Of a stretch of DNA of 64,000 nt, positions 3,149 through 55,800 are shown piece by piece. This stretch comes from Aldrovandia affinis (taxonomy: Eukaryota > Chordata > Actinopteri > Notacanthiformes > Halosauridae): contig JAINUG010000005.1 in the NCBI GenBank assembly GCA_029706075.1, forward strand, positions 4,639,001 through 4,703,000, given 5' to 3'. Position 1 is the first letter of the stretch. Each line of letters opens with the position of its first letter. The notes below the pieces were generated by a model. It did no database searches and was not told where the DNA came from. It was given only the letters and a program-made list of their open reading frames with translations. Made by a program: the position numbers and the translations under genes.

Positions 3149-3442
3149 TCAGTAGTGGCAGTAGCCCAGGCCCATGGACAGTCCGATGCCCACCCCCAGG
3201 CTCTCGCGCAGTGCCCGCAGCTGCTCCTCGCCCAAGCGGATCTTGTCCTCCAGCTGGCGTTGCTCCACGAGCAAGGCGGCCTTCATCTTGACGAAGTGAC
3301 TGTAGTCGCGTAGCTGCTCGGGGGTGAGGCAGCGGCTCAGCACCCGGCACACGGCCTGCTCCCGCCGGTCCACGTGCTCCTTCAGCTCCTGCGCCTCGCC
3401 CAGCTGGCCCTGCAGCAGCTTCTTCTTCTCCAGCAGGGGGAG
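3149..3442 (-). CDS. shroom4: shroom4 exon 10 (end of ASD2, stop)
   Basis: The acceptor follows a pyrimidine tract (CTTGCCTCCGCAG) and is in phase 0. The exon encodes 97 residues beginning [10 protein letters not shown]. It carries the second half of ASD2, a coiled coil with [12 protein letters not shown] and [22 protein letters not shown], which aligns with the C-terminus of human SHROOM2. It ends in a short [11 protein letters not shown] tail and TGA at 3149-3151. Confidence 0.9.
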   Translation of the reverse strand, partial: LPLLEKKKLLQGQLGEAQELKEHVDRREQAVCRVLSRCLTPEQLRDYSHFVKMKAALLVEQRQLEDKIRLGEEQLRALRESLGVGIGLSMGLGYCHY

Positions 3443-6400
3443 CTGCGGAGGCAAGAAAGGGAGGCACACGGTCACACAGGACCACAATTTGGCAGAGATC
3501 AAAGTTATTTTTGGTTAGATTTTATTTTTTTAATCTTTTTTAAATCTTTTTAAAAATGTGGGGGGATAGCATACAAGAGGAGGATAAAGAAGAGGAGGAT
3601 ACGAAGGCAAAAAAAGGAAGGGAAATGTAAATGAATAGAGGAAGAATTTAGCAAATGTCACTTTTAAACCATAATGTCACAATGTAAACCACATTTAAAC
3701 CATAAAAGGCCAACGGCTAGTGTAAAGTATCCATTTGCTGGCACGCCGTCCATCTATTCATATGTAAACACAGATAACCCTGAAAAAGAGATGCCCCCAC
3801 TCACCCGCTCATGGTGGGCGCAGTCACTGCCGAGACAGTCGAGGGCGCTCTCCACGCGCAGCAGCCGGCCTGACAGGGACAGCAGCAGGCTGACCACCTT
3901 GTCCAGGTCCCCGATGAACATGCGGAACTTGTCCACCTCGTTGGGCTTGCAGACGGCCAGCACCAAGGCCTCCACCTCCTCGCCCAGCTGGGAGTTGGCC
4001 CTGATGTCATCCTGCAGGCCCCGCTGGGCCTCCCGCAGCACGCCCAGCTTCTTCCGTAGGCTCTCCATCAGCTGGCGCTGTTGGGGGCAGCCAATCGCAA
4101 GTGTGACAAGCAGAACGGGGTCAGGTCACCCCCTTCCTCAGCGACATTACAGTGGCATCAGCATCATCTCCATTTCGGCCTACTCTGTTCTGGTGCTTGT
4201 AGAAATCCTGGTTATTTGCATTTTGTGTTGTTTGCCACAAATGCCTTGGAATTCGCTTTGGACAAAAGCGTCGGCCAAGTGAATAAATGTACGTATGCCC
4301 CCTCTGCCCCCTCTGGCTAGCCAGCAAATGGTCAAGATCACTGAGGGGAATATTATTCTCTGCAAAGCCAGCAAATGATTAGTTTCAAGATCAGTGATCA
4401 TCACATCAAGGAGGGAATCTGAACTCCACAAAACACAGCGTAGGCCAAATTTGACTGGCGCCTGTTCCTGACTGCTCTTGGCCACAGCTGATCACAGACA
4501 CTAATACTGACCACTGATACTGACACCAGCACTGTGACATCACCTTGTAGCAGAGCTCCTCGTCCTCGTCTCTGACGTTTGTCCCCGGAAGTTCCTTCAT
4601 CTTGCTTAGCAGCTGGGCCTTAGCAGCAGTGGTGTTATAGTAGGACTCTTGGCCTTGAATGCTGGAGGACCTGGAGCGCCTGCAGTGGGAGAGAGGAAGA
4701 TGGGTCTGGATGAGCCTAGGCCTGTGGAGCTCGATCAAAAGACAAATACAAGTGTGCGCTGCCTGTCAGGGACGTGGTTCTAAACCAGTCTCTACCAGCC
4801 CTGGTCATCAGCCCCAATCGGGGGTGGCATTTGGCTGTCCGCCCCAGGAGGAGGGGGAAGGGTGAACTGGCTCGAATCCCCCGTGGAGCACGTAAAGGTG
4901 TCTCCAGAATGTGGATGGGCCAATTCCGTCTCGAAGGAAGCGGAGTTCGCTGCCTTCGGAGAATTGGCTTGCCTCGTAGAGACGAGCAGTGGACTCATGT
5001 GGGGAGGGTAAATCGAAATCAATACAGGGTGTAATTGGCTACCAAATTGGGAGAAAATTTGTAATACTGTAAAAATAAAACAAGCTGACCACAGCATCGA
5101 TCTCTCACAATGTTAAACAGGTGAGGTGAAAACGACTCACCGCTCCAGAGTGTCGACACTGAGCTCCAGGACCCTGTGGCTTCCCCTCCACGTCTCCCCA
5201 CTGGCCTCGATTTCCACGCTGCGGGGGAAGAGCTCCTCCATGAGGTCGGCCCTGGACCTCAACCCAGTGTCGTCCGCCAAGAGAGCATCCACCAGCGAGC
5301 CACGGGGGGTCCTTGACACGGTCGCAGGCGGGGGCTCCGCCTCAGGGAGGGTGTCTATATCCGTCTCCAGGACCGTCACCGGCCGGGCGAAACACTGAGT
5401 CTCCGTCCCAACGGGACCCTCGGCTACCCCGTCTCGGAATTCGTCGATGTCCGTCTCAAATGGCCCGTTTGCCTCCTCGCTGGCAGCCAGACAGACTGGG
5501 GTGAATCTCTGCTCTGGATCCCTGCCGGACTTGCGGTACAGCTCCTTCTGCTGCTGCTCGTAATTAATGGCAAAGTAAGATTGTGACGAGAGCACCCCCA
5601 AGTGGGAGCAGTTGTCCACTGCAGGCACCACCAGGCCACGCTGGCTGACGTTTGTGGGGTTTCTCTCCCACTCTGCCGCACCTCGTTTAGGCAGGGAGGC
5701 AGGCTTCAACACAGCTGGTCTGCCCTGCGCTGCATCAGCCTCTGAGTCAGTCAATCTGGAATACAGCACGTGCACATAACCAACCACATGAGAACACGAG
5801 CAATACAACGTCACCTCCTCAAGTCAGCAGTGGAAGGGGAAAACCGAGTCAGAGTCTAGCCATGTGAAATTAAGTTTAAGTGTGATCTAAACAAAGTGCT
5901 GTGAATGACACCATCTAGCATGCCGATACAGAAAGAAGCATATTGAGGACCTCTCACCTTGTGTAGGGCTCCGCTGGTGGCATTGGTGGGCCCTGCGGCC
6001 TGGAAGGATCAGGGTGTTGGAGCGGCAAGTCACGCTCTTTTAGGGGTGGGGCCACAGGTCTGAAGGCTCTGCGTGTGAAGGCGGGGCTGCACTCCTGGTG
6101 GCTCTCAGGCTCCTCCCTTGGGGGCAGGCTGTGAGAGCGCGGGCGAGTCAAATCAGGGGCAAAGAGAGGGCGTGAAGAGCCCTCGGGGCAGGAGGGGTGA
6201 ACCTCTCTGGGTGGGGAGGAAGCAGAGGATAGGAGGTTGTGGTAGGACGAGGAGAGAAGGTTGTGGTGGGACGCCCTCCTGCGGTGGAACTGCTCCCAGT
6301 TGGGAGGCGGTGGCCGGGGTGGCCCCTTTTTTCTGGGTGAACTGGTGCTCTCCTCCAGCTCGCTCAGTGCGGGTGCCGTAAACGTGGCAGTGCGCATGCA

Positions 6401-9400
6401 CAGTCGCTGCGCGTCCAGGCGGATATCGCTCTCCGACAGGGCACGTCCTCGCTGTGGGTACTGCACCGGCAGCGGCTCCTCTACGCCACACAAAGAGAGC
6501 CTCTCTGGCACCCTAGAGTCACCCCATCGGCTCTGACAATCCTGCAGCACAGCGCCCTCTGTTGGCTGAAGGTCTCTTCTGCACCGTGTGTAGTCCCTAT
6601 ATGCAGGAAATGAGGACAGAATTAATTTTTCTATAACCTGGCAGCCTGGGAATAAAAAAAATAAAATAAATAAAACATCTTTAGGATTTTTATATTAAAA
6701 ACAAGTCATAAAAAGGAATGATTGTACATGAAACTCTGTCTTTTAAAATTGCCCCAAATGACCAATCATGCGGTGCTTAAAGGCAGTCAAATGATTAAAT
6801 GAGTCTATGGGAAACTATTTCGATATTTCTGGGAGCCAAAAGTAAAGTGTCTTACCTCTCAGTCAGACTGAACTTCCTGTTGAGTTTTGTTTGTTCCCTC
6901 TCCCTCACAGGATATGCCTGCAGAAGAGATTTGAAGTTACACAAGAGAAAAACACAGAGGCCGGTGAAGATTGTCCCAACTATGGCAACTGTATCGAGGG
7001 GCGTTACTATGTGAATGGGTATAAAGGGTGATAAGGTGGTTTAATTTTGGACACCAACAACAGCCAAGAAAAGCGCATTTTAAAATGGCTCCATACATCT
7101 GAATATTTCCATTGATGGTGAGCTGAGAAAAGGTTATGTGGATGCAAAATTCCAAAATACTGTATAATACACACTCCATATCATTTAAAAGAAGGGAACC
7201 AGTTCATGAAGCCTTTGATTTTCCCTGCTATACCCACGATTCTTGTCTCTTAGGGCCATTAAGCAAGCCAGGTTTATTATGCTCTGCACATCTGGTAATA
7301 TTAAATGGGAACTGGATTCTGTGGTAGATATAAAACAAGTATCCAGTGGTTATCATCATGGGACTCAACAAAGGGCCTTCGTTTGAAAACTACCAAGGCA
7401 AAGAATATAGGGGTTCAAGCCCAATGGCAACCAGCCAGGAAAAATACCTCAAATCAGCAATGAAAAGTTACACCCCTAACTCCACAGGGATCAAGTTATA
7501 CAGGAAGCAACATCTTGAGTTTTTATAAACATGTAAGTTTGAAAAATTATACTTACAGTAAAACCTCTTTGGTACACGACAAACAAGTACAATAGCTGAC
7601 TTCATATAGCTCACTGTACTGTAAAAACGCTTTGGACAGTGTGATTAATTCTCTGTGAATTAAATTTAACTGAATAAAATATAACTTTCCTTTATAGGTT
7701 CCTTTAGGGGAGAAACTGAAGGAAATACATTTTACAGGGAGCCTAGTGCCATTTACAAGTTGATTTACATATTGTCTACAGTTGTCAGACACAGAATGGT
7801 GTAGTCTGCTTTTAACACTTCTGCTCCTCCACATGTTAAGAGTGAAAGGCACAGCTGCACTATGCTGGCTCGCTCTTAGGTGATTATTGGCCAGCCGGAG
7901 AGACCGCATAGTGAAGCTTGTATGCTATTCCAAGTAGGAACACCCAGGAACACGCCCTTGGTCTCTGATCCATAAAATCCCATTGTGTCCCCTGCCAAAA
8001 CTCTAGTCCCAGACCCCTGTTAATCTTTAATCTGGGCAGCCCAGGGTTTAATCATTAGGTTCTGTACGAGTTTGCAGGGTCGTTGGGTCTGCGTGTGTGT
8101 CACTCACGTCAGTAGGCGTGCGGCTCCTCTGTTCATGTCCCAAGTGTACACTTTGGTTCTCCTGCTGGGGGGCAGGCGCAGTCACCGGGTGAAAGGCGGA
8201 GCGGGGGCCGTGGGCGTTGTGGCGCTCGTAGAGGCACTGGGTGTGGCCATGGGAGGGAGGCCTGCTGTCTTTGTCAGCGGCGGGGCACTGCTGAGGCGTA
8301 GGCACCACAGGTCTCTGCACTCTGTCGCGGCAGGGGTCCCGCCCAGGGTCGACGGCACCCCTCTCCTGACCACTGCTACTCACACTCTGCCTCCTGGCCT
8401 CTGGGGGGCTGTAGGCCTTCACCTCCTCTTGAGCGCACCCCTGGTAGGAGTACCTCCGACGGCCTGGCTCTAGGGCGGGTGTGTCCAGCTGCACCGGGTG
8501 AGGCTGCCTGCTGTGCCTCTCTGGCCTCTGGCGGCGACTAGTCAGGCCCGGCAGGTTCGACACGGACAGACTCCTGCTGGTCTCCTCAAAGAACTTCCTG
8601 CGGTCCGCGAAGGGAAGGATGTCGCAGTCGTCCAATCTGGAGAAGCGCGAGGCCGACGTGGCGCTCCTGCCGGGCTGCGTCAGTGCCGCTGTAGCCCCTG
8701 CCCTCACACTCCTCTTTTCAAACTGCAGCTCTGGCTGCAGCTTGTTCTCTGGAGTCCAGCGCCAACGCCTGGGTTTTCCCGCAGTGGCCAGCTCACCTGC
8801 TACTTGGCCGCAGTTGGATTCACTCGGGTCAGGGCACTGAGGGGCCTGCGAGGGATCTCGTAGTCTCTCTTGGTCCTTCCCCAAGTGGACAGTTGGGGCA
8901 GACGGGTGGAGCTGAGGAGTGGAACTTGACACCAGTCTGTTGAGACGGCCTGGGGTGCTCGGGGTCCCATAACTTTGGGCATGGGAGGGCTGGGAGGGAG
9001 AAGTTGGGTGGTTTTCCGCTTCAGGGTCTCCCCCTTCCTCCTCCTCCACGGTCCTCTCCCCGCGCAGCAGGCTGCCGGGGCTCGAGCTCTTCTGCAGCTG
9101 GGCCTTCTTGCGCTGGATCTCGTTGCGGAGGTTGGTGGCGAAGCGCTCGCTACGCCGGCGCGACTTCGACGAGCGGTGCTGCCGGGAGGAGCCGGACTTC
9201 GGCCGCGGCTCGGGAACCTCGGCTCCGTGCACCTCCTCCAGCAGCGTGTCCATGCTGGCCGCCGCAGTGAGCCCGCCGAATTCCGTCGGCAGGACGGTGG
9301 AACAGGGAGGCGCGCCGGACTGGGGGAGACCCCCCGCTGCTTCTCCGGGCACGCTGACGGAGCGCCCCCAGGAACGCGGGACGGGCGGCGGGGCGGGGGT

Positions 9401-12400
9401 GGTCTCGCGGGCGTCCGTCTCCGCCTGGGGCTCCTCCAGCTCTGAGGCTGCCACTGAGCCAGGGGTGGAGCATCGGCTCTCGCCCCACTTTCCCTGCGAC
9501 GCGTCGCTTGCATCTGGGCTCTCGGGCTTCTCTGCTGGGTGTACGGAAGACTTGGACCACTGGCCGCAGGAGGACGGGATGCTCTCAGCCGGGCCATTGG
9601 AGAGCTCCAGTAGGCGGAGCTGGGCTGATAGGAGCTTCTCGGGTGCGCTATGCCTGTGACCTCCAACCGGATGCTTCTTTGCCGTTGGCAGGAGTTGGTG
9701 AGTTGGGGCCTCTGCGCTCCGCCTCCCACTAGATGATGTTTCTGGAGGAGGGGCTGGCGATGGGCGAGTTTCCCTCTGGATCAGTAACAGGGGCGGCTGG
9801 GATTCCCTCCTTGCGGTTTCGTGCTTGGCTGCAGTCGCGGCAGGGCTCGAGCTGAGAGCTGAGCGTGTAGTACTGCTCGAGCCTGTTCCCTTTGCAAACC
9901 ACCTCCCCCTGGGACTCGCACGGACATCCCCTCTCGACCTGGCCCTGGAATGGGTCCTCTGCCTGGCAGCCGGACAGGCTCAGGATGCCCACGGGGGCGG
10001 AGGCGCAGCGCTTGTCGGCAGCTCCCGGGCGACCCCGCGTTGCTCTAAAGCTGTCCCTGCGCGTGGGAGGCTGTGGAGGGCCACTGGGAGCTCCCGTGCC
10101 ACCCTGCTCCTCCTCGTAGCCGTAGGAGGACGGTCTGATCTTGGCCTCGGCATGGCGAGAGAGGGATTGGGACTTAACGCTGGTCTCCTCGGCGAAGTCC
10201 CCCGGCTCGCTGGCAGAGTGCGGGCATCTGCCTTCAGCGTAGCGCCCCAGACCGTGCAGTAGGTTGTCCATGGAGCTGGTCTCGTCCGGCCTCAGGGACA
10301 CAGTATAGTCGGAGGTATTGGAGCTGGCGGAGAAGGAGCTGTAGGCGGAGTCTCTCTTGTTGTTAAAGATGGCGGGGTCGACGGGCGACAATTGGCTCTC
10401 GTAGTAGCCCTGGCTGGGAGGGTCCAGGCTCTCCATGCTGCCAAGGGAACTGCTGCGGTCAGTGCTACAGTGTCGGGACAGCTGGCTCCACTGCATGGAC
10501 AGGTCACTGCGCAGAGGGGAGAACAGCACACAGGCCTTAACACGGTGGCAAAGAACAGACCAGTAAGACGCTAAAGCACATTCTCCAGTCTTAAATATCA
10601 TTCAGCACCTTAAGTGTGTTCCAAAAAAAAAACCTAAGAACATTCCTGCGGTAAAGCCTTTTACAATTTCGTAAACACTTTGTATAGCAGAACCTCATAT
10701 CACATGAGACTCCCCATTTCTGACAACTAAATTGAATTCACACAAAATCGGAAAAGGCCGGTGGTTAGGTTAGGTTACTAGGTTATATTTAGCTAGCCAA
10801 CTGTTCTTCAGTGTCAGTAAATTACAACAGTGGTTGTAGCATATAGGGTGCTCAATTCCACCATTAAAAAAAAGTAATTACAGATTATTGCTTTCTATGA
10901 CTCCATTTTTTACATTTTAAGGCCACCTTTTAAAACAACAGAGGCTTTTTAGTTCAGCTCTATGCAAACAAATTCCTTTCTAATACAAAATGAGCTACAA
11001 GAGAAGACAGCAGGCCTTACACAAGAAAACATAATGAAATAAGCACTACTGTCAGACAATATAGGGCAGTTGTTTACATAAATGCTTATGCACTTATGAC
11101 AAGTATTACATTAAGAACAGTTCATCCAGTGATACGATTACAAACATAACCCCAAATTATGATATAAAAAGCAGAAGCACTTCATAACATTTCAATATGA
11201 CTATCAGCTTCAGTTCCCAAGATTTCCACAGGAAATTGTCCAAAACAGTCTAAATGTCCAAGTTATTCAAAAAAAATTGTATCCGTACATTTATATTTCA
11301 ATTATGTTGGACAATATGGATTTGAATTAGGGGTGTGACGGTATGCCACGATATTAAAATATAAAATAGTACTATCATAAATGTAACATAATACCATGAT
11401 AGTAAATCACGTGGCAAAAGCTATTTTCATGCAGGGGGGAAAAATATTTCAACCATTACCCTAGTAAAATGTCTAAATAACCCATATTAAATCATATAAT
11501 ACTGGACCTGGGGTGTCTGCTAATGTCATTTAACCCCACCATCTCTTTGGCTGTTCTTGCATTTTGTTTTGTTTACAACACAATTGCGGACGTGCAGACA
11601 GCTTCCTCACATTTCACAAGCCTGGTAGGTAACAGTTAAATATTATAGTGAAAATAAGCTATAATACTGGTGTCAATGTAGATGTGTTTATACTGATTTT
11701 AACATGAACAAGTTTGTCTTTTAGAATATACAAATGTTTTGGTGAATTTCTCAGTATTTAAAGGATTACGAGGGAAATTACTTCCGTATTTTGCGATGCA
11801 TATTGCTTAAAGTCAATGGAAAATATATGTAAAAGGGGGGAGGGGGAGCCAGCTCGGGTCTGGCGTGAAGCACGGAAAAGAAGTCTCCAGAACGTGGGTT
11901 GGCGAATTCCATCTCGAAGGAGGCGGAGGTCACTGCCCACAGAGAATTAGCTTGCCTCGTAGAGATGAGCGACGGACCCGTGTGGGGAGGGTTAAATCAA
12001 AATAAATAGAGGGTGTAATTGGCTACCAAATTGGGAGAAAACTGAAAAAAATCTAAAACAAATAAAACATTTTTTTTTTTTAAAAACTGATACCGTGATA
12101 TACCGGAAACCGTGATATTGAGTAGTACAATTATCATACTGTGAAAATGTCATACCGTCACAGCCCTAATTTGAATGACATTTAAACTTAAGTAAAGAAT
12201 ACAAAAAATAGCCAATCTCATAGCCAGAGACTTATCTCAAACCAACCTCTGGTTAAAAAATTAAACCTCTTAAAATAATTATTAGTTTGAACTTTGTATA
12301 AAACCAATTTCACTGTATAACCAGTTAAACGATTCTAGTCAGTAATGTACTATAGAGTAAAACCATGTAACTGATAGCCATCAAAATCTATCCAAGTCCC

Positions 12401-13054: not shown

Positions 13055-16000
13055 GTATGTGTTCAGACTGATACAAAGCTTAGCAATCAATCCAAATCTA
13101 TACTGAACATGACTACTAAATGAATACAATGCAATACATAATTAGTGTGCATCACATCTTGCTACTGCATTGTGTGTTGATTGTAAGGTGAATTCCATCT
13201 CATTCCACACTGTGCTGTGTGCATGGGCCCACCACGGTTTCAGTCCAAGCTGAGGGAGGGTGAGTTTAGGGTGTTCCTGGGGGGCAGGCTTACCTGTTGT
13301 CGCCCCCGGAGTGCCACGGTACAGTGAAGGGCACCGGGTGGAGCTGCATGGCAGGAGGAGCGTCTGGGGTAGCGGCGCTGGGGGGCTCCGACAGCTTAGC
13401 AAGATGCCATGAGTGAGGCCTGATCACTGGCACACTCCGCCTGCAGGGACACACAGTACAGGAGAGTGAGATCACACAGAGACATGTAGTATAAGAGAGT
13501 GAGATCACACTGGCACACAGTACAGGAGAGTGAGCTCACACAAAGACACACAGTATAAGAGAGTGACATCACACAGACACACAGTACAGGAGAGTGACAT
13601 CACAGAGATACGCACAGTATAAGTGAGTGAGATCACAGACACACAGTGAGATGACAGAGACGCACAGTATAAGCAAGTGAGATCACACAGAGACACAGAG
13701 GACAGGAGTGATATCACACAGACACACAGTACAAGGAGAGTGAGCTCACACAGAGACACACAGTATAAGAGAGAGAGGTCACACAGAGACACACAGTACA
13801 GGAGAGTGACATCACACAGAGACACACAGTACAGGAGAGTGACATCACAGAGATACACACAAGTACAAGTGAGTGAGATCACACAAAAACACTGCACAGA
13901 AACACATTCAGGGGACAGGGATCACAAAGACTGAGTAAAAAACATAACACAGCTATTTCAGTCTTTACATCTCAATCACAGCCACAAACATAGACTGATC
14001 ACCCAACGATGTCCACACTTCCCCACAGAAATGGTCACAGACCCCTCTGCCTATCTGAGTCACAAGGTACCAGATGGAGAATAGACATCCCAGGAGAGTG
14101 GAGTTATGAATGAATTGTCATTCTACTATGAATAACTGTCTGAGCATTGGGAGGGGAAAATCAACCAAGATAAAGATGTATGAGCAAAGTCTTGTGAAAG
14201 AATGTGGATCTGGCAGAGAAAGAGCAATGTACACATTTTATGTACATCTTTTTTGTTGACAAAGTAGAGTTTAAACTCATTTCTCAAGTAAACTATACAC
14301 AATCTGAAGCATTAATTTGATTTCCTACTTGATTTTTCCTGAACAATGGGTTTCATTATCCATGGGAAAGCTTATTATGTTAGAGACAGGGGTTGAAATA
14401 CTGTATTAAACTAAATAAATTTAGAAATGCACGAATATTAGTTCTATAAATATCTCAATAGTAGGAACTATTGACTATAACACAAGCAAGTTAATTATTC
14501 TGGTTCCCCCTGAGGAAATAAATGTAATTAGTTACTAAAATGAGTGCCATTGAATTACTCAAAAATAGAAAAATTCAGGAAATGAAATCAGCTTCATAAG
14601 ACAAAACTTATGTCAAGATTTTATTTGTGTCTTATTTTTACAGAAAATCTAAAAACCGATACATTCTAAAAAAAGATTGCAGTTCATGGTTAACAGCTAC
14701 ACTCACAAGTAAATGTAAGGAGAGGAAGCTCACAAACGATTCATTTCAGAAAAACTAAGCGGACTAATGGCTTTTATGGCTAGTGGATCGGATCAAAAAG
14801 CACCTCTCCAGATTCAATGTTGTTCTGCTCCTCGCTCTATACCCTGTTGAGCAGCGAATGGGATATAAAAGGACATCCAGCACAACAGTCAAGCAGTTTC
14901 CAGCAGAGTCAAGTTACTTACTGTGTGCTAATGGTGTCCTCATACAATCGCTGACAAACAAAAAGTTGAGGATGTGCAGACAAAATAGGGCCAGATAACA
15001 AGTGCTCAAAATTGTTTCTCCCGTGATCCGGTTTCTCCTTATTCCATGAACATCCAATCTTTACTTGGACTGGACCCACAGAGGAAGTTGATGCAAGTGA
15101 TCCATATCTTCAGTCCGTACAAGTATGACGTTCTCTAGTGGAAGCCAAGCACTTCACTATCTATATGGAGTTCGGGGACTTGGGAATGTAAGCAGCTAAC
15201 TTTATATAGCTTCTCCAAAGGTCTGCAGTTTCCAAATGGCCACTACGTCACAGGAGGCCAAAAATATGATTCTGAAAAAAACAACAACTAAATAATGCTT
15301 TTTTCACCCCTCCTCTGTTCCAAAATGCCGGTCACTTAGCGTCAGCCAATCTCTGTCCTTCTAGAACAAAACGAATTGAACTTCTGCAGTGTCGGCAGCA
15401 AATAGTTCTGTCATCTGTCTGAACCAGCCCTGGACTCTGATCGGATCGCCACAGCAAGAAAACGAACCCCCCCCCCGGCGAAATCCAAACGCCCTGCTCC
15501 CTACCTCCCACTCTCTCCCGGCTCTCCTTCTCTAATGATATTATAAGGCAGGAAGCCTGGCTCAGACGGAAAGGAAACTATGTTCAGAGAAGATAAAGGC
15601 TAAGCTGCTGCAAAAATAATACCCCACGTTCTTTTTATTATTGTTTGAATAACAAAAAATGTGAAGGCGCTTCCTGTCTCTCAGAGAGCCGTCAGGTTTG
15701 GCCAAAGCGCCGAACCAGGAGCGAGGAGTGTTTTGGTGGCATCCTGCCACCCAAATGTTTTCTTGCCCTTTTCTCAACGTCGATAGCACAACAATGTGGA
15801 CTTAACTGTGAAACGGTAACTGGACCCACTCCTTAATCGGCACTATTGAAAAGAGGCTTAATGAGATTTAGTTGGTTTTATACCTTTCTTTTTAGTGCAG
15901 GGCAGCATATACATATATATAGAACAAACATATATATTAATAATATTACCAACCAGCAGATGAGGGGAAAAGGAGGAGTGGAGGAGGAAGGAGGAAAGCA

Positions 16001-25500: not shown

Positions 25501-28500
25501 AAAAACAAAATGTTAATGAATAGTAACATCTTTATCGAGTACTCAAGTAAAAACTACACCGATGGCTCAATCCAGAGGTTCAGAAAAGCTGCAATAATGT
25601 GGAGAAAAGACTTCCTCGCAGACCCGAATTAGGCCACTTAGCATGGGGAGACAGGCTCTTACCTCCGCACCACCATCTTGAGAATCCTGTAGGAGCCCTT
25701 GATGAGGATGAGGGCCTCCTGGCGGGAGCCGTAAAGCGCGGAGCCATTGATGTTGACCAGCTCGTCCCCAACTCGCAGCTTCTTACACTGGGCTGCCTTT
25801 CCACCATCCTCCATCTGCGGGAAGATAGGGGTCAGAGGTCAGGAAGATAGAAGGGAAGGAGAGTCATGTATGACCATACATAATGGTTAAAATTCTCAGG
25901 CTGCAAAGAGAAGGAGAAGGAAATCACAATGTCCATTGATGGCGGCAGAAATACACATTTGTTAGCATAATGGTTATATTTTGAACTCACCATTGCCCGG
26001 TTAGAGTGACTTGTTAGCAGAGTCCCCTGCATATTTATTCATCAACCTGCTCATGCCTGTTTTTAAACCGTGATAGATAACATTACATTTGTAACAAACA
26101 CAAACAGTGGGGTTTAGCAGGCTTGTTTGTGATGTTTAAAAACATTTTTCTCCGAGAGGTGTTTGAGGTGGATATGATTGACACTATAAAAGTATTGCCT
26201 CTTTAGCTAAACCTATGAGGAAAGGGTCAACATTCTTCTGTTTTCTGTGTATTTCAATTGAAGATAATACCTGAAGTCAAAAACTGAGTCACTCCCTTTA
26301 GGATTTCAGATTTTGTGGGACTCACAAAGGACTACCTTACAGAACTCCATGTGACAATTCAAAACTGGAGACTCATTTGGTAGTGCCTGGAGCCCATTGA
26401 TAAAGCAGTGCATATGGAAATGATATCTTGTACAGTACATAACCGAGTTAACCAAGGAGCTAATGACTACATGGCCAAACCTTCATACCACATAGCAGTA
26501 CCCTCACATACTGTCATCAAATGCCTCACCTCAAATACTTTCTGAAAACGGTGCAGGACAATCCCCAAAATTAGTGATGACAATGCCAACACTACTAATT
26601 AAGGCAAACTTTGGTATGCTGCCAAATAACAAGTGAATGGCTTATAGATCATTCACCAAAACTGCTGTCAGTTAATCTTTTTGAATAGTACAGCACCACC
26701 CCCATTGTGATGAGACCATTTCAGCCCCTAAACCCAAAATGGCACACTCACCCAAACAGTGCACTCGCGTAATCTCAGTCGTCTGTGCCAAAATGGTGAA
26801 ACTCCCATGCTTCCCACCATCTGTCTGTGTTGCAATAAAAAGGAGACGTTCCTTCTCCCATACAGCCCCAGTGGTTCATTGCACAACAGTACTGGCTGAA
26901 TCTAAGCTGTCCAGAGCTGCCTCTTCTCTGAAGTCCCTGTCTGAGGTTTTACGGAGGAACCCGGCATCGCTAGGCCAAGATGACTCCCACATGCCTCTAT
27001 TCTACTCGGGTCCTCTTGATTTCCAGCTCCAAAGATATAAATGAGGAACATTTGCAGAGGCTTTAGCGTGCCCGGCATAAAAGAAACAGGGTCAGAGCAC
27101 AGAGAGCTGAAGGGACACAGAGAGAGCAACCCCCCCCACCCCCAATCCCCACCCCTTGGCTCACAGTGGTATGTAAAGATGATAGGGCAGCCAGTCCACA
27201 AAGAGGAATCTCTGTATGAGACACATTGCAGAAAGACAAAGAAGAGGGCTCTTAAAACCCTCAAACACACAAATCTCGCCGCCTGATCCTGTGTTTCCCC
27301 AAGAGTGTCACAAAAGCTAAATTACATTTTGACGGTTTGTGGTGGAACACATAGACACATATTTAGTGTAGCTGAGCCAGCCCTATTTCCCACCCATTAT
27401 GTGTTTTGAAGCAAACAGGGAGCAATTTATTTCTGGGGTTTCCACAGCGCCATCTACCCACAGGTGTGCAGTACACTTTCTGTCTATCAAAGTCAATGAG
27501 AAAGTAGGAGACTTTAGCGTTAATTCTTTACCTCTCTTTTTCAGATACGGAATGTAATTAATGTATACAAATCTCATAGAACACACTATTTTTTTGTTTT
27601 GTTGTTCTAGTTCTCATTCACTTCTATTAGGACTGTCAGATTACAGTTTGACTCACCAGAACTGTCATTGAAGTGAAAACTGCCTTATCATTGGTCGAAA
27701 CTCATCTGCTGACTTCCATGGGAAAACTTATGTTGACAACAATCATTTCAGGTAATAGGATAATGTCCTGTGCGATAGGAGACCCGTCAATTAACTATCT
27801 ACTTCATTTTGTGATGCATTGAACTGATTTTACTTGACATTAAGCCACTAAGCTATAAATAAACAATTTCTAGCATTTTAATTTAATTAAAATAGCTTAA
27901 GTGACTTAATATTAAGCCTTTTCACAGTGTGTGGATGGTCTGACACTATTCCGTTATCTGAAACCATTTGCCAACTGTAAATCTGTAACCTACTGTCAAT
28001 GTTGTCAAATCAGATATAACAAACTTTGATAGCACACGTTCTACAACATGCTACTCTAGGAAATATTTGTATTTGGTCCATTTGAAATGCAAGAACATAA
28101 ACAGTTCAGAAAAGTAAGGCTGGCGATGGGATAAAAAATTGATAAAATAATGGGAGTTTTTCAACCAGCAACTATCTATCGATAAACTTCTAATTAGGGT
28201 GTTAACTAAGCTGATTATAACTTCAAGCTACTTTCTTCCAAAACATAATATTTCTTAGATTATTATTTTTATTACTATAAAAGTCAATATCAAATTAAGC
28301 TAAATTGCATTTGATGAGCCAAAATCTGTTTGCTAGCAAGGCTGATGGCAGGAGAGATTAACAACATAACACACCACCAGTTCATTCATGAACTTAGATC
28401 AGCACACTGAATCTCTATCGGGAAACATGGAAGAAAAGGAAATCAGTATCAGGCATTTCTGAAGAGGTTTTGAACCATATCATAGACTATATTGTGGACT

Positions 28501-55500: not shown

Positions 55501-55800
55501 GTCAACAGAATTTTTCGTGGGGGAAAAAACTGCACATAAAAATGTAAGGCTGACTTAATTAGTATAGATGCATCTTAATAAATTCACTGGTTTGTATCTA
55601 TGCGATTTGGTTGCTAGCTAGTAAATACAAGAACAGGGATCATTGGGGAAAATACTCAAACTTACTTTTGTTATGATGAGCGGCTCGCCGTGCTCGAGTC
55701 CTCCTTTCAACGTGAATCCCCAGGGAGCACCTCCTTGTAGTTGGACCTGGATGTGGTGGAAGGACACGAGTTGCTCCACAGTCTCCATTCTCTGCTCCAT
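3149..55800 (-). CDS. shroom4: shroom4, Shroom family actin-binding protein (ten exons, frameshifted in exon 4)
   Basis: Shroom proteins bind F-actin through ASD1 and recruit Rho kinase through ASD2 to drive actomyosin contraction in epithelia and neurons. Ten coding exons were joined by GT-AG sites with matching phases: 55800-55666, 25814-25663, 13440-13294, 10506-8108, 6917-6856, 6596-5958, 5755-5141, 4679-4544, 4077-3805 and 3442-3149. They total 4852 nt, one more than a multiple of three. Discounting one unit of the 7-bp duplication in exon 4 gives 1614 codons plus stop. Domains in that numbering: PDZ about 19-95 (WGFTL binding loop), ASD1 about 590-615 ([14 protein letters not shown]), ASD2 about 1330-1600 ([32 protein letters not shown]). 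Start: an in-frame stop lies eight codons upstream. Assignment to shroom4 rather than shroom2 rests mainly on bmp15 next door, as in human. As written, the frame stops at codon 404. Confidence 0.9.
3443..3804 (-). other. shroom4 intron 9
   Basis: Short intron with a T-rich stretch near 3515-3555. Nothing else was recognised. Confidence 0.7.
3805..4077 (-). CDS. shroom4: shroom4 exon 9 (core of ASD2)
   Basis: The exon has 91 codons, phase 0 at both ends, acceptor CCCCCAACAG and donor GTGAGT. It encodes [18 protein letters not shown], then [20 protein letters not shown] and [16 protein letters not shown]. These are the most conserved ASD2 helices of the Shroom family, the region that binds Rho kinase. 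Confidence 0.95.
4078..4543 (-). other. shroom4 intron 8
   Basis: Intron with no recognised repeat or RNA. The open frames on either strand are short and look random. Confidence 0.7.
4544..4679 (-). CDS. shroom4: shroom4 exon 8
   Basis: The exon is 136 nt, entered in phase 2 after a strong pyrimidine tract and left in phase 0 at AAG/GTGATG. It encodes [20 protein letters not shown] followed by [11 protein letters not shown] and an acidic RDEDEEL stretch. This matches the YYST...KAELLIKMKDL segment that begins the ASD2 helices in SHROOM2. Confidence 0.9.
4775..5085 (+). repeat. SINE copy C in shroom4 intron 7
   Basis: It has the SINE body (GGCATTTGGCTGTCCGCC, AGCACGTAAAGGTGTCTCC, GAATTGGCTTGCCTCGTAGA) and the shared tail ACCAAATTGGGAGAAAA. 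It is antisense to shroom4 and fills most of intron 7 (4680-5140). The left boundary and target duplication are not clear. The tRNA-like head appears worn or missing. Confidence 0.75.
5141..5755 (-). CDS. shroom4: shroom4 exon 7 (linker and start of ASD2)
   Basis: The exon is 615 nt, in phase 2 at both ends, with acceptor TGTATTCCAG and donor GTGAGT. It encodes a low-complexity linker containing [18 protein letters not shown] and paired ETDID acidic motifs. It then encodes [19 protein letters not shown] and EELFPRS, which corresponds to the LADIL...TTMDLMEGIFP opening of ASD2 in SHROOM2. Confidence 0.92.
5958..6596 (-). CDS. shroom4: shroom4 exon 6 (proline/serine-rich middle)
   Basis: The exon is 639 nt, in phase 2 at both ends. 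The acceptor TTTCCTGCATATAG follows a good pyrimidine tract, and the donor is CACAAG/GTGAGA. It begins [14 protein letters not shown] after the split arginine codon and contains [20 protein letters not shown], likely an SH3/EVH1-type proline motif, and several SS(Y)HNLLSS repeats. The other two frames of this interval contain stops, which fixes the frame. Confidence 0.92.
6856..6917 (-). CDS. shroom4: shroom4 exon 5 (62-nt microexon)
   Basis: This exon is too short to stand out as an open frame. It is bounded by acceptor CAAATCTCTTCTGCAG and donor GAGAG/GTAAGA. It enters in phase 0 and leaves in phase 2, exactly what is needed to join exon 4 to exon 6. It encodes [20 protein letters not shown] plus a split arginine. 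The lysine/arginine-rich sequence reads naturally into DYTRC of exon 6. Confidence 0.88.
6918..8107 (-). other. shroom4 intron 4
   Basis: Intron of 1190 nt with no recognised transposon. A 118-codon open frame at 7553-7909 on the minus strand lacks splice context, resembles nothing I know and would break the phase. I treat it as chance. Confidence 0.65.
8108..10506 (-). CDS. shroom4: shroom4 exon 4, large exon with ASD1, carrying a frameshift
   Basis: The acceptor CTCTGCGCAG is at 10507-10508 and the donor GAC/GTGAGT ends the exon at 8108. The upstream part encodes [31 protein letters not shown] and [18 protein letters not shown], blocks typical of Shroom proteins. A perfect 7-bp tandem repeat (plus-strand unit AGCTGAG, 9850-9863) then shifts the frame, and TAG follows at 9729-9731. 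The alternative frame is open from near the repeat to the donor, reading [20 protein letters not shown], then [14 protein letters not shown], the ASD1 motif at 9089-9163 ([20 protein letters not shown]) and [20 protein letters not shown]. Exon length minus 7 restores the phase needed by exon 5. Confidence 0.92.
9850..9863 (-). repeat. 7-bp tandem duplication causing the exon 4 frameshift
   Basis: Two perfect adjacent copies of AGCTGAG (plus strand) lie just after the codons for EQYYTL on the coding strand. Seven is one more than a multiple of three. Upstream of it the reading frame is the one set by exons 1-3; downstream only the frame shifted by one base is open through ASD1. Confidence 0.85.
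10507..11337 (-). other. shroom4 intron 3, distal part
   Basis: AT-rich intron sequence between exon 4 and the hAT-type element. Nothing was recognised. Confidence 0.6.
11338..12168. mobile_element. Non-autonomous hAT-type element with 8-bp target duplication
   Basis: The ends are inverted repeats: TAGGGGTGTGACGGTATG at the left, and TAGGGCTGTGACGGTATG when the right end is read on the minus strand (17 of 18 identical). The element is flanked by a perfect 8-bp direct repeat ATTTGAAT at 11330-11337 and 12169-12176. The 8-bp duplication and TAGGG-type ends point to the hAT superfamily. No transposase coding remains. It carries a SINE at about 11843-12066 and lies in shroom4 intron 3. Confidence 0.85.
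11843..12066 (+). repeat. SINE copy D nested in the hAT-type element
   Basis: It shares AAGTCTCCAGAACGTGGG, GAATTAGCTTGCCTCGTAGA and the tail GGCTACCAAATTGGGAGAAAA with the other copies, and ends in an A-rich run. It is 5' truncated. Being inside the hAT-type element, it inserted after that element did, or was carried with it. Confidence 0.75.
12169..13293 (-). other. shroom4 intron 3, proximal part
   Basis: It contains a TAA trinucleotide microsatellite at about 13020-13050 and otherwise unrecognised AT-rich sequence. Confidence 0.6.
13020..13050. repeat. (TAA)n microsatellite
   Basis: About nine uninterrupted TAA units followed by TAAATAAATA. Confidence 0.9.
13294..13440 (-). CDS. shroom4: shroom4 exon 3
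   Basis: The exon is 147 nt, in phase 2 at both ends, with acceptor GTCCCTGCAG and donor AACAG/GTAAGC. It encodes [18 protein letters not shown], then [18 protein letters not shown], which reads straight into [17 protein letters not shown] of exon 4. The [10 protein letters not shown] and [15 protein letters not shown] blocks are characteristic of the Shroom family after the PDZ domain. A minisatellite begins right at its acceptor. Confidence 0.93.
13441..13905. repeat. Minisatellite (about 33-bp unit) abutting the exon 3 splice acceptor
   Basis: Imperfect tandem units of the type GAGAGTGACATCACACAGAG plus ACACACAGTACAG repeat about 13 times. On the shroom4 strand the array is pyrimidine-rich (CTCTGTGTGATGTCACTCTC) and runs directly into the CCCTGCAG acceptor, so it supplies the polypyrimidine tract of exon 3. 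The open frame seen across it is a by-product of the repeat. Confidence 0.85.
13906..18329 (-). other. shroom4 intron 2, part 1
   Basis: No exon was recognised. There is a short poly-C run near 15468-15477 and a purine-rich stretch at about 15960-16100 (GGAGGAAGGAGG type). A GC-richer patch at about 16280-17340 with CACAGGTGG, CTGACGTAA and GATA-like words could be regulatory, but this cannot be tested here. Confidence 0.5.
18330..18726 (+). repeat. SINE copy F (diverged)
   Basis: A B-box-like GGTATTGAATCCTGG lies near the left end, followed by CTGACTATGGCCGCC, which resembles the body of the full-length SINE. The right end has the shared tail TTCCAAATTGGGAGAAAA followed by AAATAAATAAAT. The middle differs, so it is either an old copy or a related family with the same 3' tail. 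Confidence 0.55.
18727..25662 (-). other. shroom4 intron 2, part 2
   Basis: No exon or RNA gene was recognised. It holds the CA microsatellite at 19491-19559. The words TATCGAGTACTC at about 24853 and 25532 form a direct repeat that may mark a decayed transposon. The remaining open frames look like chance. Confidence 0.5.
19491..19612. repeat. (CA)n microsatellite with degenerate flank
   Basis: A pure CA dinucleotide run occupies about 19491-19559, then decays into CACAC units interrupted by GAA, AAA and GTATG to about 19612. The histidine/threonine and cysteine/valine open frames over it are artefacts of the repeat. Confidence 0.95.
25663..25814 (-). CDS. shroom4: shroom4 exon 2 (second part of PDZ)
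   Basis: The exon is 152 nt, entered in phase 0 after TCTTCCCGCAG and left in phase 2 at CGGAG/GTAAGA. It encodes [20 protein letters not shown], then [20 protein letters not shown] and [11 protein letters not shown]. These are the helices and last strand of the Shroom PDZ domain, continuing from LIITK of exon 1. The frame in which an independent start occurs here is not the coding frame. Confidence 0.95.
25815..30777 (-). other. shroom4 intron 1, part 1 (next to exon 2)
   Basis: No exon, RNA gene or clear mobile element was recognised. A GGCTGGCGATGGGAT stretch near 28119 followed by TATCGATAAA is reminiscent of decayed DNA-transposon ends, but no second end was found. Confidence 0.5.
30787..31136 (-). 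mobile_element. Full-length tRNA-derived SINE (copy A)
   Basis: Read on the minus strand it begins with a tRNA-like head. The A box TGGTCTAGTGG is at 31116-31126 and the B box GGTTCGATTCC at 31073-31083, resembling tRNA-Glu. A GC-rich body follows, then the tail AAAATTGGGAGAAAAA with A/T-rich sequence. It is flanked by a perfect 9-bp target duplication AGCCAGTTA at 30778-30786 and 31137-31145. Length is 350 bp. It is the reference copy for the six related copies in the window. The head is part of the SINE, not a working tRNA gene. Confidence 0.88.
31318..31576 (+). mobile_element. 5'-truncated SINE (copy B) with target duplication
   Basis: It shares GCACGTAAGGGTGTCTCC, GAATTAGCTTGACTTGTAG and the tail ACTAAATTGGGAGAAAAA, followed by a long poly-A. 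It is flanked by the 9-bp duplication AATACCTAG at 31309-31317 and 31577-31585, so it is a genuine 5'-truncated insertion rather than an eroded full copy. It lies only about 170 bp from copy A, in the opposite orientation. Confidence 0.82.
31586..32527 (-). other. shroom4 intron 1, stretch between SINE B and a Tc1 fragment
   Basis: AT-rich, no recognised feature apart from short poly-A runs. Confidence 0.5.
32528..32905 (-). mobile_element. Degraded Tc1-like transposon, C-terminal end of transposase
   Basis: The words AAGTATTCACCCCCC and CACCCATTCTTCTTTA are those of a widespread fish Tc1-like family. On the minus strand the end of a transposase can still be read (KGPSTKS next to GGEYLCNQ, compare AKGGTTSY-type ends). 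Many changes have destroyed the reading frame. Only the 3' coding end is present. Confidence 0.6.
32906..33789 (-). other. shroom4 intron 1, GCTAGC-rich stretch
   Basis: It contains many GCTAGCTA words and an imperfect inverted repeat at 32908-32998 (ACTCCAATG...TGCTAGCT at the left, AGCTAGCATTGGAGT at the right). No coding sequence is evident. Confidence 0.45.
33849..34735 (-). mobile_element. hAT element H2 with BED zinc finger, nested in H1
   Basis: The ends are TAGGGGTGGGCGATAT at the left and, on the minus strand, TAGGAGTGGGCGCAAT at the right. A perfect 8-bp target duplication GCTGTTGG lies at 33841-33848 and 34736-34743. At 887 bp it is an internally deleted copy keeping only the N-terminal BED-finger coding of its transposase on the minus strand. 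The host sequence around it is element H1, so H2 inserted later. Confidence 0.88.
33986..34365 (-). pseudogene. hAT transposase N-terminal fragment with BED zinc finger (frameshifted)
   Basis: It starts at the ATG at 34363-34365 with [20 protein letters not shown]. After a G homopolymer the frame changes by one, and [32 protein letters not shown] and [13 protein letters not shown] follow. The CxxC...HxxxxH spacing and the aromatic WNWFGF start are those of a BED finger (ZBED/hAT). The catalytic core is absent. It is a dead fragment. Confidence 0.75.
35282..35428 (+). pseudogene. hAT transposase C-terminal dimerisation segment (H1 copy 1)
   Basis: It encodes [20 protein letters not shown] followed by [14 protein letters not shown], matching the ERxFSxAGxIV...RxxLxPxxVxxLxFL motif at the C-terminus of hAT transposases. 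The rest of the transposase is not found nearby. The same segment occurs in copy 2 at 44878-44994. Confidence 0.75.
35621..37409 (-). other. shroom4 intron 1, no feature recognised
   Basis: AT-rich intron sequence without recognised coding or repeat content. Confidence 0.5.
37410..37466 (+). repeat. Fish interspersed repeat core, copy 1
   Basis: The stretch TTTAGACATTTAGCAGACGC plus TCTTATCCAGAGCAACTTAC is a very common interspersed motif of fish genomes. Only the conserved core is clear here. Related, longer copies lie at 44478-44705 and 45594-45730. Confidence 0.75.
37467..42955 (-). other. shroom4 intron 1, central stretch
   Basis: It holds a 27-base T run at 38588-38614. Otherwise nothing was recognised; the 130-codon minus-strand frame at 40019-40411 has no family resemblance and no splice context. 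Confidence 0.5.
43120..44360 (-). mobile_element. Near-complete Tc1-like transposon flanked by TA
   Basis: Inverted ends begin CACTGCCCGTC and, on the minus strand, CACTGCCTGGTC; both lead into a run of A and then GTCAC. TA dinucleotides flank both ends (43118-43119 and 44361-44362), the standard Tc1/mariner target duplication. Copy 1 of the host hAT shows the same place uninterrupted (TATATGTTCTC). Length is 1241 bp. It carries a damaged transposase on the minus strand. Confidence 0.9.
43151..44199 (-). pseudogene. Tc1-like DD34E transposase, inactivated
   Basis: It starts at 44199 with [20 protein letters not shown] and a helix-turn-helix ([20 protein letters not shown]). A stop follows GRKKI at 43987. 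The catalytic part continues with [12 protein letters not shown] (first Asp), [15 protein letters not shown] (second Asp) and, after a frameshift following [22 protein letters not shown] (Glu). A second frameshift precedes [20 protein letters not shown], and the end is [10 protein letters not shown]. At least three lesions make it non-functional. Confidence 0.92.
44478..44705 (+). mobile_element. Short repeat (fish core motif, copy 2) inserted in H1
   Basis: The insertion point is defined by comparison with H1 copy 1, which reads uninterrupted there. CATTTTA is duplicated at 44471-44477 and 44706-44712. The insert contains GCATTTAGCAGACGCTCTTA, then GCAAGAGATCGCAGTGCAAT, and a (TTA)n run at about 44661-44687. 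It is likely a SINE-like or other small non-autonomous element of about 228 bp. Confidence 0.7.
44878..44994 (+). pseudogene. hAT transposase C-terminal segment (H1 copy 2)
   Basis: It encodes [20 protein letters not shown] then [18 protein letters not shown] and a TAG stop. It is nearly identical to the segment in copy 1 at 35282 but ends earlier because the local sequence after the CTGGGG run differs. Confidence 0.75.
45594..45730 (+). repeat. Fish interspersed repeat, copy 3
   Basis: It has ACATTTACATTGACAG and GCATTTAGCAGACACGTTTA, followed by GCAAGAGATCAGTACAGCAA and ATAGATGCCATC. The second half matches the second half of the insert at 44478-44705, so the family is longer than the usual core. 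It is 67 bp beyond the right end of H1 copy 2. Confidence 0.65.
49600..49835. repeat. Probable DNA-transposon remnant
   Basis: The words GCCGATTAATTG, ATCGGTCTATATATCGGC, AATCGGTATTG and CATCGGTCAAGCTCTA are of the ATCGGT-rich type seen at the ends of common fish DNA-transposon families. The boundaries and family are uncertain. Confidence 0.35.
51331..51450. repeat. 25-bp direct repeat with a 20-bp hairpin
   Basis: AATCATCCAGTGAGTCCACT plus TGGAC occurs twice, at 51331-51355 and 51411-51435. The second copy forms one arm of an inverted repeat: arm 51409-51428, 2-nt loop, arm 51431-51450, with two mismatches. Its function is unknown; it may be a remnant of a small palindromic element. Confidence 0.6.
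55666..55800 (-). CDS. shroom4: shroom4 exon 1, coding part (start and first part of PDZ)
   Basis: It has 45 codons from the ATG at 55798-55800 to the donor AAAA/GTAAGT. It encodes [20 protein letters not shown] and [20 protein letters not shown] and [24 protein letters not shown] is the first strand and carboxylate-binding loop of the Shroom PDZ domain. An in-frame TAG at 55825-55827 supports this start. A second Met at residue 5 is possible but less likely. Confidence 0.95.

Follow-up and report, generated by a model that had tools for sequence, protein, structure and literature searches.

A frame break near a 7-bp tandem repeat in exon 4 of an Aldrovandia affinis shroom4 gene, probably an assembly error

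The shroom4 locus and its domains

The stretch of DNA analyzed here in full, hereafter the window, comprises 64,000 nucleotides of the Aldrovandia affinis genome (C2022:4639001-4703000 of a 1.22-Gb assembly in 2576 contigs). Its minus strand carries a gene of ten exons, running from position 55800 down to 3149, which we placed by motif, GT/AG sites and phase (Table 1). Pfam recognizes a PDZ domain at the N end of the product, across exons 1-3 (PF00595, E 4.3e-11), and an ASD2 at its C end, in exons 9 and 10 (PF08687); the latter was recovered again by a genome search. Both domains uphold the gene identity given by a first-pass annotation, and the name shroom4 follows a presumed likeness to human SHROOM4. 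A minisatellite of ~33-bp units occupies positions 13444-13892, directly before the acceptor of exon 3, which starts at 13440.

Table 1. Coordinates, in window positions, of the shroom4 exons and of the features that bear on the frame break
Feature	Position	Strand	Basis
Exon 1 (start codon, PDZ part)	55666..55800	-	GT/AG + phase; Pfam PDZ
Exon 2 (PDZ part)	25663..25814	-	GT/AG + phase; Pfam PDZ
Exon 3	13294..13440	-	GT/AG + phase
Exon 4, 2399 nt, AG acceptor and GT donor	8108..10506	-	GT/AG + phase
Exon 5	6856..6917	-	GT/AG + phase
Exon 6	5958..6596	-	GT/AG + phase
Exon 7	5141..5755	-	GT/AG + phase
Exon 8	4544..4679	-	GT/AG + phase
Exon 9, ASD2 (Pfam E 1.6e-37)	3805..4077	-	GT/AG + phase; Pfam
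Exon 10, ASD2 end (Pfam E 3.2e-36) and stop	3149..3442	-	GT/AG + phase; Pfam
Interval that must contain a single frame switch	9729..9979	-	open frames
7-bp tandem repeat AGCTGAG x2, where the frame probably, though not demonstrably, switches	9850..9863	.	direct reading
LIQRETR stretch, DNA weakly similar to the C1978 shroom4 copy (downstream frame)	9761..9784	-	DNA alignment
In-frame TAG that follows codon 403 of the assembled sequence	9729..9731	-	translation of exon model
Another perfect 7+7 tandem repeat of other sequence, inside unbroken frame	8519..8532	.	exon 4 repeat count

The phases of exons 1-4 agree with one another, as do those of exons 5-10, and the two groups can be reconciled only by taking one base (modulo three) out of exon 4. 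As assembled, the coding sequence measures 4852 nt, which leaves a remainder of one on division by three and none once seven bases are subtracted (4852-7), so that the first-pass arithmetic, by which the removal of seven bases makes all ten exons phase-consistent, is borne out. The premature TAG was likewise reproduced from the exon model, and the PDZ and ASD2 domains are thus not contained in one open frame. The nine exons other than exon 4 are intact, including their splice sites. For the exon 4 protein, as for the 701 bp that surround the repeat, the assembly contains a single identical site; the 701 bp match only the window itself, and with these two queries no second haplotype of the locus was found.

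It had also been claimed that the break costs the gene both ASD1 and ASD2. ASD2, the common denominator of the Shroom family (PMC1481537), does lie downstream of the TAG. The loss of ASD1 appears overstated, given that Shroom4 has been described as having no obvious ASD1 (PMC1481537, PMC5343488) and that Pfam reported none in the downstream frame of exon 4 at E values up to 10, with filters that drop most matches above 0.1 and an ASD1 model assumed to be present in the library. The motif behind the claim is nevertheless real: 12 ASD1-like residues are present in that frame, and a similar motif occurs in a shroom2-like gene on contig C1900 of the same genome. When compared with the genome, exon 4 protein matches one other locus at E 5.6e-11 and the rest at 0.2 or worse; the exon 4 frame found no match in the PDB.

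The 7-bp repeat and the position of the frame switch

The upstream frame is open at 10601-9729 and the downstream frame at 9979-8048; because both are open at 9979-9729, one net +1 or -2 change anywhere in that interval suffices. Within it, the plus strand reads AGCTGAGAGCTGAG at 9850-9863 (minus strand, CTCAGCTCTCAGCTC), and the doubling of AGCTGAG reported by the first-pass annotation is correct to the base. Perfect 7+7 repeats start at three positions in exon 4, two of them in this repeat and one at 8532, where 0.37 starts would be expected; since 24% of 500 dinucleotide shuffles of the exon had at least one such repeat, its presence in the exon is unremarkable in itself, as opposed to its position near the frame change. 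Across the assembly, the 14-mer has 120 exact occurrences (73 forward, 47 reverse). The palindrome GCTCGAGC stands both at 9845-9852, overlapping the start of the repeat, and at 9876-9883, beyond its end, a doubling that might favor slippage or misassembly.

No other perfect tandem repeat of 4-12 bp exists within 9979-9729, and only ~0.015 perfect 7+7 starts are expected by chance per 100 nt, about the span that codon statistics favor (scaled from 0.37 per 2.4 kb). On these grounds we infer, with fair confidence, that the frame changed at the repeat. The first-pass claim that the repeat is the lesion is therefore likely by proximity and rarity; it falls short of being established, because any net +1 or -2 change in the interval fits and because codon statistics point 3' of the repeat. 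The other 7+7 repeat of exon 4 is harmless to the frame, which limits the weight that can be put on this one.

Homology to a second shroom4 copy on C1978, in which exons 4, 6, 7, 9 and 10 are open, brackets the switch from both sides. Exon 4 of this copy (C1978:3082192-3083575, L028) is shortened, contains repetitive DHST sequence close to its start and has HFATNLHTETQ as an altered form of the ERFATNL motif. With E <1e-5, six DNA matches to the copy establish the upstream frame for 10506-10481 and 10466-10403, and the downstream frame for 9506-9451, 9220-9095, 8764-8729 and 8640-8541; a seventh, at 9665-9622, begins in the third frame and contains one gap; by codons, it agrees with the downstream frame. 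Weaker matches, spread over all three frames, were left unused. Between 10403 and 9672, the sole evidence from this copy is the weak match of the LIQRETR stretch (9784-9761) in the downstream frame, whose score was reached by between 8 and 71 of 2000 shuffles, according to the region supplied. A longer version of the match, 9784-9744 (0 or 1 of 1000 shuffles), includes a 1-nt gap that flips the frame in a C-rich stretch, and only the part before the gap was counted. Neither the likeness of YYTL, just upstream of the repeat, to the second copy (503/1000 shuffles) nor a protein alignment to that copy across 9849-9732 (163/2000 shuffles in the downstream frame, 857/2000 in the upstream frame) was significant.

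Codon statistics trained on the gene itself (1527 codons) place the switch near 9730, with 95% of the weight at 9784-9728, and, at 9849-9732, prefer the upstream frame by a log ratio of +6, a value reached by 0/74 overlapping codon windows whose truth is the downstream frame; 29% of the 116 with upstream truth are at or below it. With other shroom exons added to the training, the best point moves to 9827-9828, and the weight is distributed as 7% at 9870-9846, 59% at 9845-9785 and 33% at 9784-9728; with the other shrooms only, the corresponding values are 13%, 76% and 10%. In 712 simulated 7-bp duplications the median error was 9 nt and 81% fell within 30 nt, the best point lay at least 25 nt downstream in 11%, and the weight near the true site was 0.10 or less in 8%. 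The repeat is thus compatible with, yet not singled out by, codon usage, the statistics being centered 3' of it. The own-gene optimum near 9730, being dependent on the training, was not relied on alone as evidence against the repeat.

These data also bear on a second and lesser possibility, which we hold tentatively, namely that the two 7-mer copies are old and harmless and that the frame was changed by a further small indel located 3' of the repeat, within 9845-9672, be it real or artefactual. Such an indel would fit the own-gene table, which prefers the upstream frame through the repeat, and is favored likewise by the lack of significant YYTL likeness on the upstream side and by the harmless repeat at 8519-8532. 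It is opposed by the shift of the optimum to 9828, and the fall of the weight at 9784-9728, once other shrooms are included, and also by the resemblance of LIQRETR to the second copy in the downstream frame. Since this question of site cuts across the explanations of origin weighed below, the confidences attached to them do not sum to one.

Frame breaks elsewhere in the assembly

The ASD2 profile finds seven loci in the assembly. Of the five large exons examined besides that of the window, two change frame (C1834 and C1900) and three are unbroken (C2200, C2466 and C1978); at C491, no large exon was found within the 20 kb examined. Open frames of 1114 and 1084 aa make up the large exons of C2200 and C2466, respectively, the former showing one switch near its end under the lax penalty only. 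Going by their motifs, we take C1900 to be shroom2-like and C1834 to be shroom3-like. The large exon of C1900 (C1900:601850-604560, L036; 71% GC) has clearly coding pieces in all three frames, with 7 switches under the strict and 10 under the lax penalty in 2.7 kb, and at eight of nine inspected switches a run of at least five G or C is present within 40 nt, such runs being frequent at 71% GC. Within the 28 kb examined there, 2500 N lie some 8 kb from the exon, which is likely poor consensus sequence. The single frame change in the large exon of C1834 (C1834:2512911-2512851, L042) could be a small intron.

As a control for the background of frame breaks, the assembly was searched with the Cadherin_2 profile, which presumably marks protocadherin exons of ~2.5 kb. 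Out of 178 candidates 150 were scored, and 143 were retained after 7 partial ones had been dropped; 36/143 matches lie in open frames of less than 700 aa and 107/143 in longer ones. Large Cadherin_2 clusters are found on C1765, C1950 and C2011; about a quarter of all matches have short open frames. If all 36 are breaks, a Poisson estimate gives ~0.12 breaks per kb, an upper bound in which true pseudogenes and naturally short exons are included; for the shroom4 coding sequence (4.845 kb), this amounts to 0.57 expected breaks and a probability of ~0.44 for at least one. Because frame breaks are this common, one somewhere in a 4.8-kb coding sequence is unsurprising, with 0.44 as the highest value of that probability.

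Three of the 36 short-frame matches, picked because siblings exist, were compared with a sibling of longer frame, poor alignments beyond the exon ends being excluded. Each exon has one or two single-base deletions (5 in total, of which 3 fall within stretches of 2-7 G or C), and one of the three has the same +1/-2 shift as shroom4. Two deletions (GG to G, CCC to C C) separate L051 from L052 (2420/2533 bases identical), one in a run of seven G separates L053 from L054 (2157/2564), and two that lie 6 nt apart separate L055 from L056 (1833/2560, the alignment being less certain).

Origin and consequences of the shroom4 break

We regard the break as probably an error in the assembled sequence and not a change in the animal. 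An assembly error was one of the two origins that the first-pass annotation had suggested, and the frequency of frame breaks elsewhere in the assembly supports it. An otherwise intact shroom4 would then carry one break in exon 4, at the 7-bp repeat or some tens of bases 3' of it, arising from a mis-called short repeat or from one or two base errors nearby, and presumably of the same technical origin as the other breaks. In favor of such an error are the intact state of the nine other exons and their splice sites, the strong matches to C1978 at 10506-10403 and from 9506 on in the expected frames, the 36/143 short Cadherin_2 frames and the two broken large exons among the five other shrooms. Against it stand the control changes, which are single-base deletions, unlike a 7-bp duplication, and the finding that no homopolymer longer than 4 exists at 9785-9880; moreover, the Cadherin_2 rate is an upper bound for which 3/36 matches were compared, and 3/5 other large shroom exons are unbroken. 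The version of this reading that places the error at the repeat must also contend with the own-gene codon table. Should the repeat be the lesion, it would resemble a real slippage event more than a typical error.

An alternative, which we consider rather unlikely, is that the 7-bp tandem duplication is real and segregates in the species; it would truncate Shroom4 after its PDZ part and probably trigger mRNA decay. The perfect repeat near the frame change, the occurrence of one break only in 4.85 kb and the lack of a long homopolymer at the site all speak for it, and the C1978 copy could buffer the loss; the assembly, however, yielded no second haplotype, and its background of breaks is high enough to account for one in shroom4. 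The same redundancy would permit a fixed recent loss, by which the gene on the window contig would be a young pseudogene, and this we hold to be improbable, because the domains and the nine other exons with their splice sites show no damage, whereas a pseudogene of any age should carry more than one lesion. Nothing in the analysis shows a real loss of shroom4. Restoration of the frame by splicing or recoding is more improbable still. A small intron across the repeat, which the first-pass annotation had considered, was rejected for want of an adequate donor: none above 0.8 bits exists at 10403-9740, compared with 3.1-7.4 bits for the nine real donors, and the sole internal donor of exon 4 with 4 bits or more lies far 3', at 8796. 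In the second copy this region is a single open exon, and no slippery heptamer for a programmed frameshift was seen at the site on inspection by eye. Skipping of exons 4 and 5 would be a candidate way round the break, given that the end of exon 3 and the start of exon 6 are in the same phase and the PDZ would be joined to the ASD2 in frame.

If the break were real, the ASD2 of this gene would be lost. Between the TAG and the last exon junction there are 3349 nt, and six junctions follow the TAG; a stop so far before the last junction is expected to elicit nonsense-mediated decay. A stable PDZ-only protein, which the first-pass annotation had foreseen, is therefore doubtful. The ASD2 of Shroom3 is reported to interact with Rock (PMC12852734). 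Conceivable, though in our view unlikely, is a real 7-bp slippage allele that deprives one shroom4 copy of all that follows its PDZ part, the remaining function being carried by the second copy, in which the ASD1-like motif is altered to HFATNLHTETQ. No natural frameshift of a fish shroom4 was mentioned in the titles and abstract beginnings of the literature searched on Shroom4/Shrm4, ASD1/ASD2 and zebrafish. A real duplication would provide a natural truncation of one of two copies, usable for studies of redundancy. A caution follows for gene-loss calls: because about a quarter of one exon class looks broken in this assembly, an isolated frame break in one of its long exons counts as weak evidence of gene loss.

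The gene in the window is presumably like human SHROOM4 in having a very large fourth exon and an ASD1-like motif. It has in common with Shroom4 (KIAA1202) the N-terminal PDZ and C-terminal ASD2, and differs from it in that the assembled exon 4 contains a frame break, which leaves the two domains disconnected. As with the indel consensus errors of assemblies, its frame changes inside a conserved exon and coding resumes in another frame; in contrast to the single-base deletions of the compared controls, the candidate lesion in shroom4 is a 7-bp tandem repeat.
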